Shown: positions 26,581-34,960, counted from the first letter of the stretch. The stretch: 39,539 bases of DNA from Marinifilum sp. (GCA_020718065.1 DYDE01000020.1:1-39539), one strand, 5' to 3'. Notes: generated from the sequence alone by a model not told the origin. Numbers and translations: made by a program.

Positions 26581-26772
26581 TTGGTTAATTTATTTTGGTA
26601 CGAAATTAACTAATTTATAATTATCTTTTTTATTTATGGTTGTAAAAATATAAGAGAGGGTTTTGAGGGTTTGAACAATTATATTTATAAAATACAGTTT
26701 TGGCAATAAAAGTTATGGTTTTTAGTTTAAGTTTTGAGGATTGAAGGCATCGGGAGCGTGTCGGAGCATGAA

Positions 26773-27104
26773 GAAATCGATCCGGAGCATGAGGAAATCG
26801 ATCCGGAGCGGAAATAGGTTCGGAAGGAGAGGAAATAGGTTCGGAAGAGGAGGAAATCGATCTGGAGCATGAAGAAATAGGTTCGGAAGAGGAGGAAATG
26901 GGTTCGGAAGTGGAAGAAATTGGGTCGGAAGGTAAGGAAATAGGTTCGGAAGGAAAGGAAATTAATTCGGAAGGAGAAGAAATAGGTTCGGAAGGAGAGG
27001 AAATAGGTTCGGAAGAGGAAGAAATTGATTCGGAAGAGGAGGAAATTGATCCGGAGCAAGAGGAAATTGATTCGGAAGAGGAGGAAATAGATTTGAAGGA
27101 GAAG
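26773..27104 (+). repeat. 21-bp tandem repeat (about 16 units)
   Basis: Sixteen consecutive units begin GAAAT, with the typical form GAAATAGGTTCGGAAGAGGA plus one G. All are 21 bases except the second (26794-26810, 17 bases). Single-base variation is spread through the array (GAAATCGATCCGGAGCATGA in some units). A partial unit precedes it from 26761. Read on the plus strand from 26898 it gives a heptapeptide pattern such as EIGSEEE, and on the minus strand a FRTYFLS pattern. The 17-base unit breaks the reading frame and no promoter is seen, so I treat this as a minisatellite rather than a gene. The gap 26581-26760 holds nothing recognisable. Confidence 0.9.
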
Positions 27105-27311
27105 AAATTGGATTGGAAGGAGAGGATTCTTATTTACGATTTACGATTTTGGATTTACGATTATACGCATTAGAAGTTTTGGATTTGTGGTTTTTTTGGA
27201 ACACAGAGAAATTGGATTGGAAGAGGAGGATTCTTATTTACGATTTACGATTTTGGATTTACGATTACACTTACTAGAAGTTTTGGATTTACGGTCTTTT
27301 TGGAACACAGA
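27103..27311. repeat. 104-bp tandem duplication of a dispersed repeat
   Basis: Unit 1 (27103-27206) and unit 2 (27207-27311) are near-identical direct copies. Each contains AGAAATTGGATTGGAAG, then ATTCTTATTTACGATTTACG, TTTTGGATTTACGATTA, a TAGAAGTTTTGGATTT segment and TTTTTTGGAACACAGAG. The first unit grows out of the end of the 21-bp array. The second runs into TTACACAAAGTTTAGACACT and GAGTTACACAGAGGAATTTT to about 27365. The same modules recur at 34120-34960. Confidence 0.85.
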
Positions 27312-27377
27312 GTTACACAAAGTTTAGACACTGAGTTACACAGAGGAATTTTGGATTTACGATTTAAAAAGTATATA

Positions 27378-27611: not shown

Positions 27612-27619
27612 TATATTTG
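27612..27619 (+). promoter_or_regulatory. possible promoter -7 box for the paralogue pair
   Basis: TATATTTG matches TAnnTTTG. It lies 107 bases before the ATG at 27727, giving a leader of about 100 bases. No good -33 element is present, so the evidence is moderate at best. Confidence 0.3.
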
Positions 27620-27726: not shown

Positions 27727-28806
27727 ATGAAGGTAGTACTTTACAGTCGATCAAAACTTGATACAAAGGTCGATACTGCAACTGAAGAAGTTTGTCCACG
27801 TATCGCCCTTATTTACGCAGAAAGGTTTTCTGTGAGCAATTTCTATTCAGAAATATTATTATTGTGGCGAGACAGGGATAAATTGGGTGATCGGTTTTAT
27901 TGTTATTTGTTCGATGCTTTCTATTGTAAAGGTGAACCTAATAGCGATTTCGAAAAAGGTTCGTGTATTAAGTTTTATAATGATTTAAAAGACCTGAGAA
28001 AAATAAAACACAAGGACAAAACAATATTAGTTGCTTTGCAACAATTGGAACACTTGCTAAAAAATATTATAACTGATGTTAACAATTGGTTTGAGAGCAA
28101 TCTGAATGCACGCAGGTTGATGCCTCTGATACCCTTTGAGAAAGAAGAAGATGTATTTGTCCTCATGCCAAATGATAGATATTTGGAGGATTCAAAAGGC
28201 GAAGACCATCTGATAAAGTATATTATCGAAAGTTTTTCTGATTACGATGAGGAACTGATTTTTGATCAGGTGATTGTAGAAATGGTTCCCAATGTGCGTC
28301 TTAATGAAAAAGCTGAAATTAATACAAAAGCGAAAAATCCGTTTTTCTTTTCCATGCCATTATTCTCTTTTCCTCTTATGATCGATCTCAACCACCCTCA
28401 GTTGGCAAATGTCCGTAATGAACTGAATCCAGTCTTTGTGCCTTTTAATGAAGATTACGACCTGTTGAAAGAGGAACTTGCTTCTGTTGTTTTTGAAAAA
28501 GAACAGGGGCGGATTCAGCCCTTACTCAAAAAACATATTGTACCGCATCTGGTAGAAATTCAGAAAAACATAGATAAAAACATTTACATTCAACAGGAAA
28601 AAAACCGTTATAGCGCCAACTATCAGATAAAAGTAATGATAGGTGTTACAAGTATTGAAAATCAGATACGGTTGCTCGAAAAGGAAGAAATTATCAAGCC
28701 CTTTGTAGCCGCAGCTATTATTGAAAAACTGGCGAAAAATTTTGATATTAAAACCTGCGTACCCTTCATTTATCATATTTATCCAAAAACAAACATAACA
28801 TCATGA
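27727..28806 (+). CDS. unrecognised protein, first of two paralogues
   Basis: The protein has 359 residues with no signal peptide, no clear transmembrane segment and no motif I can name. Long charged helices (LRKIKHKDKTILVALQQLEH, LKKHIVPHLVEIQKNIDKNI) alternate with a hydrophobic central block (NPFFFSMPLFSFPLMIDLNH). It is clearly related along its length to the next protein. Matching segments are RKIKHKDK / RTIKHKDK, MPLFSFPLMIDL / IPLWEFPPFIGLDY, FVPFNEDYDLLKEELASVVF / LAPFKTMLKELSEQLF, IQKNIDKNIYI / VQKSIDESIYL, and KPFVAAAIIEKLAKNFDIK / LPYVAAEIKQQISKHIDLK. Its stop overlaps the next start by four bases (ATGA), so the pair is translationally coupled and may form a heteromer. Function unknown. 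Confidence 0.85.
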   Translation: MKVVLYSRSKLDTKVDTATEEVCPRIALIYAERFSVSNFYSEILLLWRDRDKLGDRFYCYLFDAFYCKGEPNSDFEKGSCIKFYNDLKDLRKIKHKDKTILVALQQLEHLLKNIITDVNNWFESNLNARRLMPLIPFEKEEDVFVLMPNDRYLEDSKGEDHLIKYIIESFSDYDEELIFDQVIVEMVPNVRLNEKAEINTKAKNPFFFSMPLFSFPLMIDLNHPQLANVRNELNPVFVPFNEDYDLLKEELASVVFEKEQGRIQPLLKKHIVPHLVEIQKNIDKNIYIQQEKNRYSANYQIKVMIGVTSIENQIRLLEKEEIIKPFVAAAIIEKLAKNFDIKTCVPFIYHIYPKTNITS

Positions 28807-29864
28807 AAATAAATTTTTATAACAGGGAACCATCAAAAATCCCACACGACTACGAAAGATATTGTCTTCATCCGCTTATTATACTTGCCGACAGGGTAAT
28901 GTATTGCTCAATAAGTGGATGTTTAATGTTTGTTTATCTTGATATTGAAACATGGACGGATGAAATGATTTTCACTGCTTTCGGAAATACTTTTAAAGAC
29001 GATCCGGAAGATGTGAAGATAGCGGAGGATGTTAAAGTCCTTTATCTTTTAGTTAAAAAAATAAGAACAATAAAGCATAAAGATAAGGGAGCCATGTTAA
29101 TTCTTGGTAACTTCAATTCAATCATTAGGACTTTCAAAAAAGCACTTATAGCGTTTCAAGTAGAACAACTTGAAGATCACTCATTATTAGAATTGGTACC
29201 TTTTGTGGCTGATGAGGTGTTAAAATTACGACCCTTGTATTTTATAGAAGATACTACAAAGGAAGATGAGTTTATTCAGGAGATTTCAAATACGTTAACC
29301 GAACGCAAAAATATTTTAGCTTTAGATTTTATGGTGGATGGAATATTTCGCTTTACAACACTTGATTTAAAGGAAAAAAAGGCAAGTGATTTTATAAAAA
29401 TTCCTTTATGGGAATTTCCTCCGTTCATAGGCTTAGATTATGCCAAGATAAAATACACGCGGGAAAATCTGATTTTGCCACTCGCTCCTTTTAAAACAAT
29501 GCTTAAAGAACTATCGGAGCAACTCTTCGGCATACGGTTTTTGCCCGAAAATATGTTAAAAATAAAACAATTATGCAATGATAAATTATCATTGCTCATT
29601 GCTCCTGTGCAAAAATCAATAGACGAAAGTATTTATTTAAGCCAATTGAAAAATAATCTGCCTGATAAATTCAACATGAAATTCTGCCTGGGAATTGCTT
29701 CTGCTGAAACTATTGTGAACTACTACGAAAAAATAGATGTTATATTACCTTATGTGGCTGCCGAAATAAAACAACAAATCAGTAAGCATATTGATCTGAA
29801 AGCAACTTATGTATTTACCTACTTCGAGTTAAACTCTCCAGAAAAGGATAATCATTTATTATAG
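28803..29864 (+). CDS. unrecognised protein, second of two paralogues
   Basis: The protein has 353 residues. The start ATG overlaps the stop of its paralogue (ATGA at 28803-28806). It shares the same block order: VKKIRTIKHKDKGAMLILGN, a PLWEFPPFIGLDYAKIKYTR block at about 200, then PVQKSIDESIYLSQLKNN and LPYVAAEIKQQISKHIDLKA near the C-terminus. Identity by eye is low to moderate, so the duplication is old. Having two diverged copies kept in a coupled arrangement suggests that both are needed, perhaps as two subunits of one complex. No catalytic motif is evident. The stop codon lies at the very edge of a 14-bp tandem repeat array. Confidence 0.85.
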   Translation: MKINFYNREPSKIPHDYERYCLHPLIILADRVMYCSISGCLMFVYLDIETWTDEMIFTAFGNTFKDDPEDVKIAEDVKVLYLLVKKIRTIKHKDKGAMLILGNFNSIIRTFKKALIAFQVEQLEDHSLLELVPFVADEVLKLRPLYFIEDTTKEDEFIQEISNTLTERKNILALDFMVDGIFRFTTLDLKEKKASDFIKIPLWEFPPFIGLDYAKIKYTRENLILPLAPFKTMLKELSEQLFGIRFLPENMLKIKQLCNDKLSLLIAPVQKSIDESIYLSQLKNNLPDKFNMKFCLGIASAETIVNYYEKIDVILPYVAAEIKQQISKHIDLKATYVFTYFELNSPEKDNHLL

Positions 29865-29965
29865 GTATAGGGTATAAGGTATAGGGTATAAGGTATAGGG
29901 TATAAGTTATAGGGTATAAGGTGTAGGGAAATAAGATATAGGGTATAAAGGTATAGGGTATATGG
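29864..29965 (+). repeat. 14-bp tandem repeat array (7 units)
   Basis: Seven units of GGTATAGGGTATAA run from 29864. The first three are identical, the fourth has GTTATA, the fifth and sixth are 15 bases long, and the last ends TATAT followed by GG. The array begins with the last base of the upstream stop codon. It fills much of the 244-base gap before the nuclease gene; the rest is an AT-rich spacer and inverted copies at 30007-30053. Confidence 0.92.
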
Positions 29966-30006
29966 AAAAAATAATAGAAAATGATATATTAAATCTCTCA
30001 AAACAT

Positions 30007-30053
30007 CTATACCTTTATACCTCTATATCGTTATACCTATACACCCTTATACC
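30007..30053 (-). repeat. inverted, degenerate copies of the 14-bp array
   Basis: The complement strand reads GGTATAAGGGTGTATA, GGTATAACGATATAGA, GGTATAAAGGTATAG, about three units of roughly 15-16 bases related to the array at 29864-29965 in opposite orientation. The two blocks, separated by about 40 bases, could form an extended imperfect hairpin in the gap between the paralogue pair and the nuclease gene. Confidence 0.75.
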
Positions 30054-30108
30054 TAAAAAGTAACAAATAAATTCATAAAACGTATCATAAATATAAACTC
30101 AAACTATT

Positions 30109-31560
30109 ATGGCACACACAAGCAAATACGAATACATCGAAATTGAAGACAACCCCGAATACAAATCATTGCGGGTAAAAAACATCAAAGGATTTATTAA
30201 AATGGTTCAGGAATATGAAATAAAATTTATTTTTCTAACCGAAAAAAATACTGAAAAAAATGCTGAAAGCGATTTCATTTTCATTAAGGATGAACTTCTT
30301 TATCGAATTAGCGCCAATAACTTCAAAACACTCGAAGATTATGAGGATGCAGCCAAAGCCGAATTTCCCGATGCCGAAACTTTCTACGATGCAATAAAAG
30401 CCGGGATAACTACTTTTAAAGATTATCAGAATTGCAAAAAGACAGGGGTGGTTGATAAGGCAGCCTATCTTAAAACCCAGCGGCTCGGATTTCTTGATTC
30501 TTTTGAAAGGTTCAGGGATCGCTGCGAAAAAAACAAGGGACTTATTTCGCCGGATTTTGATATGGGCAATATGGATACTCCTATTAAGCTTTGCGAGTTT
30601 GCTACATCAAAAGGATTTAAGGACTACGGCGATTTCGATAAAGCATTTTTCCTGGGTTTTTTGGATAAGATCACTTATGACGAAGCAAAATTAAAAGGAT
30701 TTACTTACGCAGAAGATTACATCAATGCAGTGAAGATGGGTTTCGACCAGATTAAAGAATATCAGGAGGCAAAACACCTTAAAATTCAAAGTAAATACGA
30801 ATATAATATTTATGCTAAAATTAAAAAATTATCAAAAGGTATATACAGTGCAGATCAGGTAGTACTAATGAACGCTCTGAAAAATACCGATAACGGAAAA
30901 AAACTTTCACTTAAAAAACTTAAGGAACTTCTCATTGAAAAGGAAGAGGACCTTAAGTTCGTTGTCGGCGTAAATGGTATCCGGTCTTTCCCTGAATGGT
31001 ACGCAAAAAAAATGAAAACCGAAGATGAAATCCGCTCTTTTTTAACACAGGGAAGTGATATCAGACAATATGGTATTTTTGATAAGGACGGAGAATATTT
31101 TGAGGTATGGAAAATATCTAATCAAAAAATATATGTTGATGGCAATAATGTTGCTTACGAAAATAACAGACGAAGAGAAAATCCGAATGCAGACGATAAA
31201 CCCCATTGCAGCAATATAAAGATGATAGTTGATGAATTGCTTCACCTGCGTTTTGAAGAAATAATTGTTATTGCTGACTATGGACTGAAAAGGAAATCGC
31301 CCGATATGAACATTTTAAACAAGATGATAACCGATAAACAAATCAGCTTTCATGAAGCTCCTTCATTGACTGAAGCTGATGAATTTTTTATTAAAAACGC
31401 TAAAACTGATAAATGTTGCATTATCACCAATGACACTTTCAGAGATTGGAAAATGAAAGATTCGTGGATTGCTGAAAACATAGACAGGATTCGTATTCCA
31501 TTTATGATTGAAGGCGATAAAGTAACATTTTCGGGTATAGAAAAAATAATTGCGAAATAA
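30109..31560 (+). CDS. NYN/Zc3h12a-type ribonuclease-domain protein with N-terminal short repeats
   Basis: The protein has 483 residues. The C-terminal domain (about 338-483) fits the NYN/PIN nuclease fold of the Zc3h12a (Regnase) type. Four acidic positions are in the expected places: Asp344 (IYVDGNNVAY), Asp390 (VIADYGLK), Asp424 (LTEADEFFIK) and Asp442 (IITNDTFRDW). These would bind Mg2+ for RNA cleavage. Residues about 72-226 hold about ten degenerate repeats of 14-15 residues with the pattern Y-x-x-A-x-x-x-G-F, for example TFYDAIKAGIT, TYDEAKLKGFT, DYINAVKMGFD; these probably form a helical solenoid for RNA or protein binding. The extreme N-terminus (EYIEIEDNPEYKSLRVKNIK) is unassigned. 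The protein is cytoplasmic. It follows the paralogue pair in the same direction after a repeat-filled gap; a functional link is unproven. Confidence 0.85.
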   Translation: MAHTSKYEYIEIEDNPEYKSLRVKNIKGFIKMVQEYEIKFIFLTEKNTEKNAESDFIFIKDELLYRISANNFKTLEDYEDAAKAEFPDAETFYDAIKAGITTFKDYQNCKKTGVVDKAAYLKTQRLGFLDSFERFRDRCEKNKGLISPDFDMGNMDTPIKLCEFATSKGFKDYGDFDKAFFLGFLDKITYDEAKLKGFTYAEDYINAVKMGFDQIKEYQEAKHLKIQSKYEYNIYAKIKKLSKGIYSADQVVLMNALKNTDNGKKLSLKKLKELLIEKEEDLKFVVGVNGIRSFPEWYAKKMKTEDEIRSFLTQGSDIRQYGIFDKDGEYFEVWKISNQKIYVDGNNVAYENNRRRENPNADDKPHCSNIKMIVDELLHLRFEEIIVIADYGLKRKSPDMNILNKMITDKQISFHEAPSLTEADEFFIKNAKTDKCCIITNDTFRDWKMKDSWIAENIDRIRIPFMIEGDKVTFSGIEKIIAK

Positions 31561-32073: not shown

Positions 32074-32688
32074 ATGCTTGTACCATCCATGACATTGCAG
32101 GAAATACGCAAGGAGTTTGAAAAAGATTATCCTATTCTGCGGCGAAAAATACAATATGTAACCCATGACCTGACGAAAAAGCTTAACAGGTACACCAAAA
32201 GCCAAGGATTTATAAATATTTATGATTATTATTCCAAAAATAAAAATCATTGGTTATATCGCTTAAACATATCCGATAAGGATAAAAAACAATCGGTTAT
32301 GATGCTTTACCACAATGGCAAGGGAAATGTTGCCATCAGTATTTTGGGAAACCTTCAAATGGTTTACCATACCGGACACTTTTTTGAACGTTACAACGAA
32401 AGGAATAATCTGGGGCTTAGTACATTTAAGGATATCGTGAAGGCCTATATGAACGAAACTTTTGTAATTGATTTTAAAACCCTTGATGAAATTGCGCCAG
32501 GTATTTTTAAAGTGTTTTGTATAATACCTTCGGGTGTTGCCCTGGGTATGTTTAACGAAAAAATAAACATGGTGAAAACCAATACTTTTCTTACAAACAG
32601 TATGCTATCTCAAAACCAGCTTAAATTGAAAGAGGAGCTAAAAAATGAGCTTGATAAATATGAACATAGCTCAGATAGGTTGGAATAA
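32074..32688 (+). CDS. unrecognised protein with HFFERYNER motif
   Basis: The protein has 204 residues with no signal peptide or membrane segment. The N-terminal half is charged and helical (LQEIRKEFEKDYPILRRKIQ). The middle is strand-rich: HWLYRLNISDKDKKQSVMML, then GNVAISILGNLQMVYHTGH. The most striking feature is H99-T-G-H102-F-F-E-R106-Y-N-E-R110, a compact cluster of His, Arg and Glu that could be a catalytic site. A following hydrophobic segment reads IFKVFCIIPSGVALGMF. His/Arg/Glu clusters of this type occur in some small nucleases and toxins of the barnase/RelE-like (BECR) fold, but the resemblance is only a suggestion. It stands alone between repeat blocks with its own promoter-like box. 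Confidence 0.8.
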   Translation: MLVPSMTLQEIRKEFEKDYPILRRKIQYVTHDLTKKLNRYTKSQGFINIYDYYSKNKNHWLYRLNISDKDKKQSVMMLYHNGKGNVAISILGNLQMVYHTGHFFERYNERNNLGLSTFKDIVKAYMNETFVIDFKTLDEIAPGIFKVFCIIPSGVALGMFNEKINMVKTNTFLTNSMLSQNQLKLKEELKNELDKYEHSSDRLE

Positions 32689-33004: not shown

Positions 33005-33955
33005 TTATGAAATATCGGCATCGAGTGAAATGTCAAATAAGAGTTCGTCGCCGGGAGAAACGCTGATCTCGGCGGTTTGTTTTGTTATATATGTTTCTTG
33101 TGACACCCTGAAGGTGTATTTTCCGGCAGGTACTTCTTCGAAATAGGCTTCGGCATTTTCATCCACATCTACAGAAGCAACAACTGTGTTGTTTGCAATC
33201 ATATCTACAACTGCACCTTCGAGTGGGCTTGCATCGATGGTGGCAGTAACATTTAATGAAACTATTCCTATGCCTTCTTCGATAAGTTGTTTGCGCGACT
33301 TGCCACGACGATCGTAGATGTTTCGTGCATTAATATACAGACTATAAAATTTAGGGTGTTCGTCGGAAAGAACAAACATTAATGGGTCGATCTCGTTTGT
33401 GAGAATGTCATTGGTGGTCGTAAATTGTTCTTCTAATAATTCGGTGTAGTATTTTGCACGTTCGATGGCAAGTGTAGGTGTATTGTAATTGTTTTCGAAA
33501 TCTTCAAGTGTTATGCCCAGCGTGATGAGTTCGGAAGCATCAATATCGTATTCGAAGAGGGTTAAAGCATAGAAATTTGCTTTTGAGAGGATCATGTTTG
33601 CTTTTTCGATAAGCAAAATGTCAGTTAATTTATTAAGCCTGTTTTGAGAAAAACTAATTTCGCTTTTGAGCTCGAGGTTTTTGTTCTTGTGAGCATATGC
33701 ACTGAGTGCTGCGGCAGTAATTGCTGATATGTGAATGAGGTTGTTGCGAAGCACATGTTTAGATTTGGTGATACCAGAGATTTCGGATTCTTTGTTAATG
33801 ATGGTGGTTTTGATATTGCCAACACCGGTTTTGAATCTGTTAATGGAATCTTTGAGTTGGAGTTTGGTTGCAATGATCAAGGCATTGTCTTTGTCGTCGA
33901 AGATTGATATGACATTGTTGTCCATATTCAATCGGTTTTCTTGAGAAGTTCTCAT
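33005..33955 (-). CDS. unrecognised helical protein with C-terminal regulatory-like beta domain
   Basis: The protein has 316 residues. No signal peptide is visible. The start may be ATG 33955 (MRTSQENRLN) or the Met at residue 11 (MDNNVISIFDD). Residues about 20-225 are helical and charged, with a four-helix feel (IATKLQLKDSINRFKTGVGN, LDILLIEKA-like and AIERAKYYTELLEEQFTTTN segments). A loop DRRGKSRKQLIEEGIG leads into about 232-316, which reads like a carboxypeptidase-regulatory/CnaB-type beta-sandwich (PLEGAVVDMIANNTVVASVD, VPAGKYTFRVSQETY). Such domains are normally extracytoplasmic, so their presence in a protein without a signal peptide is odd. The gene is richer in G and C than its neighbours and is flanked by repeats on both sides. 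I do not recognise the family. Confidence 0.8.
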   Translation of the reverse strand: MRTSQENRLNMDNNVISIFDDKDNALIIATKLQLKDSINRFKTGVGNIKTTIINKESEISGITKSKHVLRNNLIHISAITAAALSAYAHKNKNLELKSEISFSQNRLNKLTDILLIEKANMILSKANFYALTLFEYDIDASELITLGITLEDFENNYNTPTLAIERAKYYTELLEEQFTTTNDILTNEIDPLMFVLSDEHPKFYSLYINARNIYDRRGKSRKQLIEEGIGIVSLNVTATIDASPLEGAVVDMIANNTVVASVDVDENAEAYFEEVPAGKYTFRVSQETYITKQTAEISVSPGDELLFDISLDADIS

Positions 33956-34119
33956 AAATTTAAGATTTAAAAGTTAAACAAAAAATTAAGATTTACGGTT
34001 AACGATTTTTGTAAAATGAAAAAGAACTTTTGTTTATTTAATTTTAAAGATATGAAAAATAAATATAGGGTTTTGAATTATTTTATTAACGGTATTGTAA
34101 ATTAATTTAACGGTAAATT

Positions 34120-34960
34120 ATTTACGATTTTGGATTTTTGATTAACGATCTTTTTAACGCAGAGAGAGCAAAGAAGACACAAGGAGCCGCAAAGTTATTT
34201 ACAATTTATGATTTTGGATTTTCGATTCTTTAATGTATTTAGCTACAAATGGATTTGCGATTTACGATTTTGGGATTGCAACTTATAATTGCTATTTTAT
34301 GACAATAATTTTTAACCACTAAGTTCACAAAGGGTTTATACGAAGTACACAAAGGGATTTACGATTTGCGATTTTGGATTTACGATTACTCTCACTGGAA
34401 GTTTAGGGTTTGCGGTTGTTTTTAACCATTAAGGTAACGAAGGGTTCTAAAGAAGGCACACAAAGGACTTTTTGGTTTTTGATTTGTGATTTTTTAATGC
34501 TGAGAACGCAAAGGATACGCAGAGAGTCTCGAAAAAATTTACGATTTACGATTTTGGATTTACAATTTTATTGTTATCACGGAGTTACTCAAAGTTGGAG
34601 TACAAAGTTACACGGAGGAATTTACGATTTATGACCCCTATCCTAAATCCTTTCCCCAAAGGAGAAAGGACTTTGGCAGTAGTCTTAGTTTGAAAGGTTG
34701 TTGTTGCTAATTTGTTTTTTTATTGATTTAAGAACAAGGATTAACGATTTTTGATTTACGATTACTCTCGGTGGAAGTTTGGGAACTGCAATTTTTTGGA
34801 GCACAGCGTTGCACAAAGTTGGGGCACAAAGTTACACGGAGGAATTTACGATTATACTCACCAGATGTTTTGGATTTGCGGTTATTTTTTACCACGAAGG
34901 AGCACAAAGGGTCTTCACGAAGGCACACAAAGGATTTTTGATTTCTTTTTGCAAATAGAC
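34120..34960. repeat. mosaic array of dispersed intergenic repeats
   Basis: The 1.1-kb gap 33956-35094 has no supported gene. It is built from recurring modules. (a) TTTACGATTTTGGATTTACG-type units occur near 34122, 34199, 34256, 34358, 34538 and 34739. (b) ACCACGAAGGnnnACAAAGG with an AAGGCACACAAAGGA tail occurs at 34314-34357, 34424-34468 and 34891-34933. (c) GTTACACAAAGTTGGGGCAC-type units with a GTTACACGGAGGAATTT tail occur at 34581-34624 and 34801-34844. (d) CTCACTGGAAGTTTAGGGTT-like linkers occur near 34391, 34767 and 34858. A copy of the 32697 repeat is at 34638-34713. Modules a, c and d also form the 27103-27365 block, and b recurs at 31874. No transposase is present. Confidence 0.85.

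Follow-up and report, generated by a model that had tools for sequence, protein, structure and literature searches.

A single-copy Regnase-type NYN ribonuclease co-occurs with a multi-copy family of rapidly diverging proteins in Bacteroidota: a possible two-component RNA system

The stretch of DNA analyzed here, in the following called the window, comprises 39,539 nt from Marinifilum sp. (GCA_020718065.1 DYDE01000020.1:1-39539; genome G000), of which positions 27727-31560 were studied. This part encodes two related proteins, A and B, of a family without known relatives and, on the same strand, a protein with an NYN ribonuclease domain (Table 1). We found that the NYN protein and the paralogue family occur in the same genomes among those examined, that the nuclease gene is single-copy and strongly constrained, and that the paralogues, here referred to as partners, are often numerous and evolve fast. 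Judging from sequence, we give about an even chance to the reading that they form a two-component trans-acting RNA system, in which a single-copy Regnase/KHNYN-like NYN endoribonuclease would be combined with multi-copy, fast-evolving partners serving as interchangeable adaptors or regulators. Both families are carried by some freshwater and cave Bacteroidota.

An earlier note on this DNA had described a coupled pair of paralogues followed by an NYN-type ribonuclease in a repeat-rich island, and its account of the locus proved accurate. All three open reading frames (ORFs) are present on the plus strand, A and B share the four bases ATGA (28803-28806), and the two proteins are diverged paralogues that align over 353 columns with 27% identity and 47% positives. 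The gap between B and the NYN gene measures 244 bases and contains repeats. The island is flanked by purB and pruA, and its repeats include a 21-bp array (Table 1) as well as a 104-bp direct repeat (27103-27312). In the third protein Pfam recognizes an RNase domain (RNase_Zc3h12a, PF11977) at residues 339-473, with 61.4 bits against a gathering threshold of 23. For A and B it also holds that they match no known system: neither Pfam nor NCBIfam gave a match at the curated threshold, PDB sequences gave nothing below E = 0.06, and PADLOC and PHROGs nothing meaningful.

When the NYN protein was searched independently in 295 genomes of the order, it was found in exactly the six paralogue-bearing genomes, in one copy each (6/6). 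The hypergeometric probability of this concordance is 1e-12, assuming independent genomes. Both families are absent from same-family relatives of the positive genomes in this set. Among 395 genomes of the phylum, full-length copies of both families were detected only in G000 and in G552, the latter belonging to another class. A scan of a genome collection yielded eight NYN loci, three of them from new genomes, and those three contain 3 to 13 partners. Partners were present in 10/10 NYN-bearing genomes examined. The NYN protein was also detected in nine further genomes of the class (G727, G761, G765, G788, G800, G820, G828, G943 and G944). A match to just 65 positions of the NYN domain in G380 was not counted as a homologue, and in G020 one weak paralogue match to a single query (E 6e-4) was unconfirmed by profile A1, which had been built from 13 relatives. 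Going by their names, several of the positive genomes are metagenome-assembled genomes (MAGs) from lakes. The locus L085 (DYQK01000063.1) belongs to the MAG SulCav_GS10, which was probably sampled in a cave and whose label, Rikenella microfusus, is probably a naming error.

Four of the ten genomes have the NYN gene directly 3' of a paralogue and in the same orientation, at a distance of 244 bp in G000, 75 bp in G002 and 14 bp in G552 and with a 7-base overlap in G111. It is unlinked to a partner in G043, G061, G298 and G299, and the NYN loci of G155 and G297 are cut off by contig ends. The earlier note had named homologues that are never adjacent as the observation that would speak against one system; adjacency does occur, without being the rule. 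TAnnTTTG is the consensus of the Bacteroidota promoter element. The 250 bp before the linked NYN genes contain this motif in 0/4 cases, vs 15/24 first or unlinked genes that have it (p = 0.035). It precedes 11/18 first paralogue genes and, for four unlinked NYN genes, lies at most ~65 bp away, the value for shuffled sequence being 15%. In the window the motif is present before gene A and missing from the 244-bp gap, which, as a consensus match, supports one transcript. The part of the earlier proposal that joined paralogue and NYN protein in one system thus stood, backed by co-occurrence, adjacency in four genomes and the distribution of the promoter motif; the part that made the paralogues a fixed pair did not.

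That the genes abut or overlap in different families and even in another class, and that the 6/6 concordance in 295 genomes includes the absence of both from same-family genomes, speaks against an explanation without any functional link. Under such an explanation, to which we assign a slim probability, NYN protein and partners would both be markers of a lifestyle or lineage (repeat-rich freshwater Bacteroidota) and their adjacency would be incidental; it would accommodate the four genomes in which they are unlinked, the lake names of several positives and the co-occurrence of both families with the genome-wide 21-bp arrays treated below.

According to an AlphaFold2 model (Table 1), the NYN protein comprises an N-terminal beta/alpha domain (residues ~1-72), short helical repeats (~75-240) with helices spaced ~14 residues, a middle region and a Regnase-type NYN domain (~337-480). 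The best structural match of the latter was Regnase-1 (3v34); ZC3H12C was also matched, as was KHNYN with a Z score of 16.7. The domain belongs to the Regnase-type (PF11977) family. Residues D344, N347, D424, E425 and D442 are invariant in 9 NYN homologues and D446 in 6, and we take these six residues to correspond to the catalytic acid set of Regnase-1. The predicted catalytic residues are intact, and we infer that the protein cleaves RNA. A Pfam scan revealed no zinc-finger family in the NYN protein, whose NYN domain extends to the C-terminus. Between genomes the protein shows 35-76% identity, the near-identical pair G155/G297 excepted, and at least 35% is retained even across classes. For G155/G297 the ratio of nonsynonymous to synonymous substitution rates (dN/dS) is 0.02; the nuclease is strongly constrained.

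The partner family shows a different pattern. With paralogue A as query we found relatives in few genomes, yet often in several copies each. Counting fragments, profile A1 identified 2 (window genome), 9, 15, 1, 1 and 12 copies in the six genomes of the order; copies are dispersed and located singly or in tandem groups of 2 to 4. Mean identity among partners is 23%, and no more than three positions are nearly invariant in an alignment of 27 members, a pattern that speaks against an enzyme; the partners are apparently non-enzymatic. Orthologous and tandem pairs gave dN/dS values of 0.07-0.40, indicating that the partners are selected and kept intact, but are constrained far less than the nuclease. 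The partner tree shows lineage-specific expansions, with 8/9 G002 copies placed together and further groups in G043 and G155. Some copies are fragmentary or broken, one of them with five internal stops, and together with the expansions this points to birth and death of partner copies. The view of A and B as two paralogous subunits of a fixed pair had to be abandoned, since a genome may carry anywhere between 1 and 15 copies, singletons are frequent and the two window paralogues fall into separate clades. A fixed A-B heterodimer as a general rule was rejected on account of the tree and the copy numbers.

An adaptor or regulator role of the partners best fits the combination of a single conserved RNase that has kept its catalytic residues with numerous diverging partners that are apparently not enzymes. 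The ancestral unit was probably a paralogue-NYN operon, which would have been retained in the window, and the partner gene would later have multiplied and dispersed in some genomes. We infer a physical interaction in which the partners most likely bind the common RNase as interchangeable adaptors or regulators, perhaps via the N-terminal or helical-repeat region of the NYN protein, and would set which RNAs are cut, and when. If true, this would be an undescribed bacterial arrangement, one conserved RNA-cutting enzyme being served by a large, rapidly diversifying partner set, and a parallel to animal NYN nucleases that borrow specificity from separate recognition proteins. Several points weigh against the adaptor proposal. 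The genomes compared are not phylogenetically independent, the co-occurrence count covers ten NYN-bearing genomes, and four genomes have their NYN gene away from any partner. The acidity of the partners (median isoelectric point 5.4) does not suggest direct RNA binding. Furthermore, the predicted model of B is poor (predicted local distance difference test, pLDDT, 53) and unusable for fold matching; against PDB structures it gave no Foldseek match at E < 1, and the best VIA Z score was 5.4.

The same features bear on the question whether the partners could instead be inhibitors of the antitoxin or immunity type, restraining an RNase that would be harmful when free, with the extra copies as spares or decoys. 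A nuclease that is single-copy, highly constrained (dN/dS 0.02) and mostly located among housekeeping genes is unlike mobile toxins; in addition, up to 15 partners per one nuclease would be an odd stoichiometry, and the nuclease lies apart from any partner in four genomes. We therefore regard inhibition as unlikely, even if the acidic, fast-evolving and apparently non-enzymatic partners would suit it and the gene order is antitoxin-like: the upstream gene overlaps or abuts the nuclease gene in G111 and G552, an order compatible with type II toxin-antitoxin systems.

A defence-type module, as considered in the earlier note, was not supported. PADLOC 2.0 gave no match for A, B or the NYN protein at E up to 1, and its search left all five island proteins without a match, with only weak partial matches elsewhere in the window. 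The genes around the NYN gene are for the most part housekeeping genes or unknown; those with names encode Clp ATPase, helicases and metabolic proteins. In the few partner pairs measured nothing indicated positive selection, and a search of viral contigs did not recover the NYN protein. We see only a small chance that the genes form an RNA-targeting system against phages or mobile elements with the partners as invader sensors in an arms race (cf. ZAP and KHNYN), although a single effector with diversifying partners and a patchy distribution across families would be in line with it, and KHNYN is an RNA endonuclease working with a separate recognition protein (PMC11685948). A phage origin likewise found no support in the viral-contig or PHROG searches.

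Table 1. Features of the studied region and its surroundings (window positions)
Feature	Position	Strand	Evidence
Partner paralogue A, 359 amino acids, family not recognized	27727..28806	+	ORF; profile A1 match E = 4.9e-114 (A itself included in profile); clade with G298/G299/G552 copies
Partner paralogue B, 353 amino acids, ATGA overlap with A, clade other than that of A	28803..29864	+	ORF; BLASTP 27% identity to A, E = 3e-28; grouped with G043 copies
NYN ribonuclease, 483 amino acids	30109..31560	+	ORF; Pfam RNase_Zc3h12a E = 1.1e-16; AlphaFold2 pLDDT 82; top PDB match MCPIP1/Regnase-1, Z 17.1, root-mean-square deviation 2.2 Å, 137 residues
Predicted catalytic codons of the NYN domain: D344, N347, D424, E425, D442, D446	31138..31446	+	Invariance among homologues
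Candidate Bacteroidota promoter element TATATTTG (TAnnTTTG), 115 bp 5' of gene A	27612..27619	+	Consensus match alone
14-bp array in the B-NYN gap and a stretch partly complementary to it; predicted to form a long imperfect RNA hairpin, this genome only	29863..30054	+	Fold z = -3.8; absent at other linked loci tested
21-bp tandem array, ~15 units, ~600 bp 5' of gene A; belongs to a genome-wide 21-bp minisatellite class	26763..27140	.	Tandem Repeats Finder

The gap between B and the NYN gene contains seven units of a 14-bp repeat (AGGTATAGGGTATA) at 29863-29962, and a stretch at 30006-30054 is complementary to them in part. As RNA, both fold jointly into a long imperfect hairpin with -61.8 kcal/mol. 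This structure could weaken read-through into the NYN gene and is possibly a window-specific control element. The idea that a regulatory hairpin is conserved 5' of the NYN gene was discarded, the structure being strong in the window only and not at the other linked loci tested. Rfam contained no known RNA family matching the region.

Using Tandem Repeats Finder we noticed arrays with a unit of exactly 21 bp, as well as the multiples 42 and 63, at many loci of the system. Arrays typically have ~10 units and ~220 bp; besides the one in the window, examples are found at L042 10624-10865, L119 6622-6794 and L082 5965-6191, and others exist. In regions picked by contig number and not by content, 15 arrays were counted in 317 kb of system-positive genomes vs 0 in 896 kb of system-negative genomes, of which 273 kb belong to the family of the window genome and 193 kb to G552 relatives; in two of the 15, both from G002, the period is 20 bp, and another two, from G552, may represent a single array split by a contig end. 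At the level of genomes, 6/7 system-positive (the exception being G061) and 0/36 system-negative genomes contain arrays. Repeat units are unrelated between sites, each site having its private unit. Arrays are located at most 1.5 kb upstream of 16/44 partner/NYN clusters and downstream of 2, control genes being unbiased (37 vs 38 of 275). Contig ends lie within the same distance of the clusters in 15 cases upstream vs 1 downstream, and the apparent array length may be set by assembly limits. The link between arrays and system at the genome level could be explained by habitat, shared ancestry and small numbers. Strictly 21-bp arrays marking the same genomes are a second lead, and their association stands outside the demonstrated system. 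We consider it quite improbable that NYN RNase, partner family and arrays make up one repeat-linked RNA system in which the arrays, with ~10 units and a private unit per site, would be transcribed or recognized and handled by partner-NYN complexes. An interpretation of the arrays as coding repeats was rejected for want of a consistent open frame, and palindromic hairpins or binding sites are not general (5/43 units significantly palindromic, median p 0.51). Literature searches returned no genome-wide 21-bp arrays in Bacteroidota.

Genes of ~210-320 residues were observed next to arrays in the window (33005-33955, minus strand) and at L115 6172-6816, L118 4929-5582, L119 6886-7638, L145 17324-18055, L032 6716-7684 and L035 7837-8799. 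By eye, their products combine a helical N-terminal part with a beta C-terminal part resembling immunoglobulin (Ig)/FnIII or CarboxypepD_reg domains, and there is almost no mutual similarity. A conserved third protein was rejected because these genes are too dissimilar for any family to be built. The genes at L032 and L035, both from one genome, are related (E ~1e-19) and lie divergently, beyond the array, from an unlinked NYN gene and from a partner pair. Dense imperfect repeats (GATTTACGATTT..., ACACAGAGTTACACAAAG...) at 33986-34940 of the window, 5' of the gene at 33005-33955, are common to 27130-27360. An ORF of 204 amino acids at 32074-32688, on the same strand as the NYN gene and 3' of it, had no family match.

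Among known systems, Regnase-1/MCPIP1 and ZC3H12B/C (PF11977) share with the window protein an NYN domain above the Pfam threshold, Z scores of 16-17, the conserved catalytic acids and the NVA motif. The window protein is without a recognized CCCH zinc finger and as a whole is therefore not a ZC3H12 protein; it has a bacterial N-terminal domain, short helical repeats and a bacterial partner family. Rae1/YacP, a ribosome-bound mRNA endonuclease whose cleavage depends on the ribosomal A site, has a bacterial NYN fold as well (Z 8.3, fold similarity only), but is far more distant than Regnase, and the Rae1 chain (174 residues) has no extra domains. We know of no partner family for Rae1/YacP. The protein-only RNase P PRORP also has helical repeats followed by an NYN nuclease; however, the alignment is confined to the nuclease part (Z 10-14), and the window repeats have one helix per ~14 residues, whereas PRORP has 35-residue pentatricopeptide repeat (PPR) units.

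A Bacteroidota NYN ribonuclease is likewise found in the type III CRISPR system of Bacteroides fragilis, where it cleaves single-stranded RNA in a sequence-nonspecific, Mn2+-dependent manner (PMC11346440). The window copy differs by its long N-terminal region and by a partner family in place of Cmr proteins. Near the window NYN copy we saw neither cas genes nor a CRISPR array; PADLOC matched none of the five island ORFs, and the named neighbours include no Cas protein. With respect to the arrays, the TAACTGA heptamer repeats of Beggiatoaceae, Cyanobacteria and some Bacteroidetes are also intergenic direct repeats, numerous per genome, for which a regulatory role has been proposed; they consist of one fixed heptamer, whereas the window-type arrays have a fixed 21-bp period and a different unit per site (PMC4679880). 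KHNYN, finally, is an RNA endonuclease directed by a separate partner protein (PMC11685948) and acts with ZAP in eukaryotic antiviral restriction. It has the NYN endonuclease fold in common with the window protein; the window system differs in having no recognized KH domain and no ZAP or TRIM25 homologue, its partners being an unrelated multi-copy family. By analogy, the window NYN protein may work like KHNYN, as a likeness and not as a membership.

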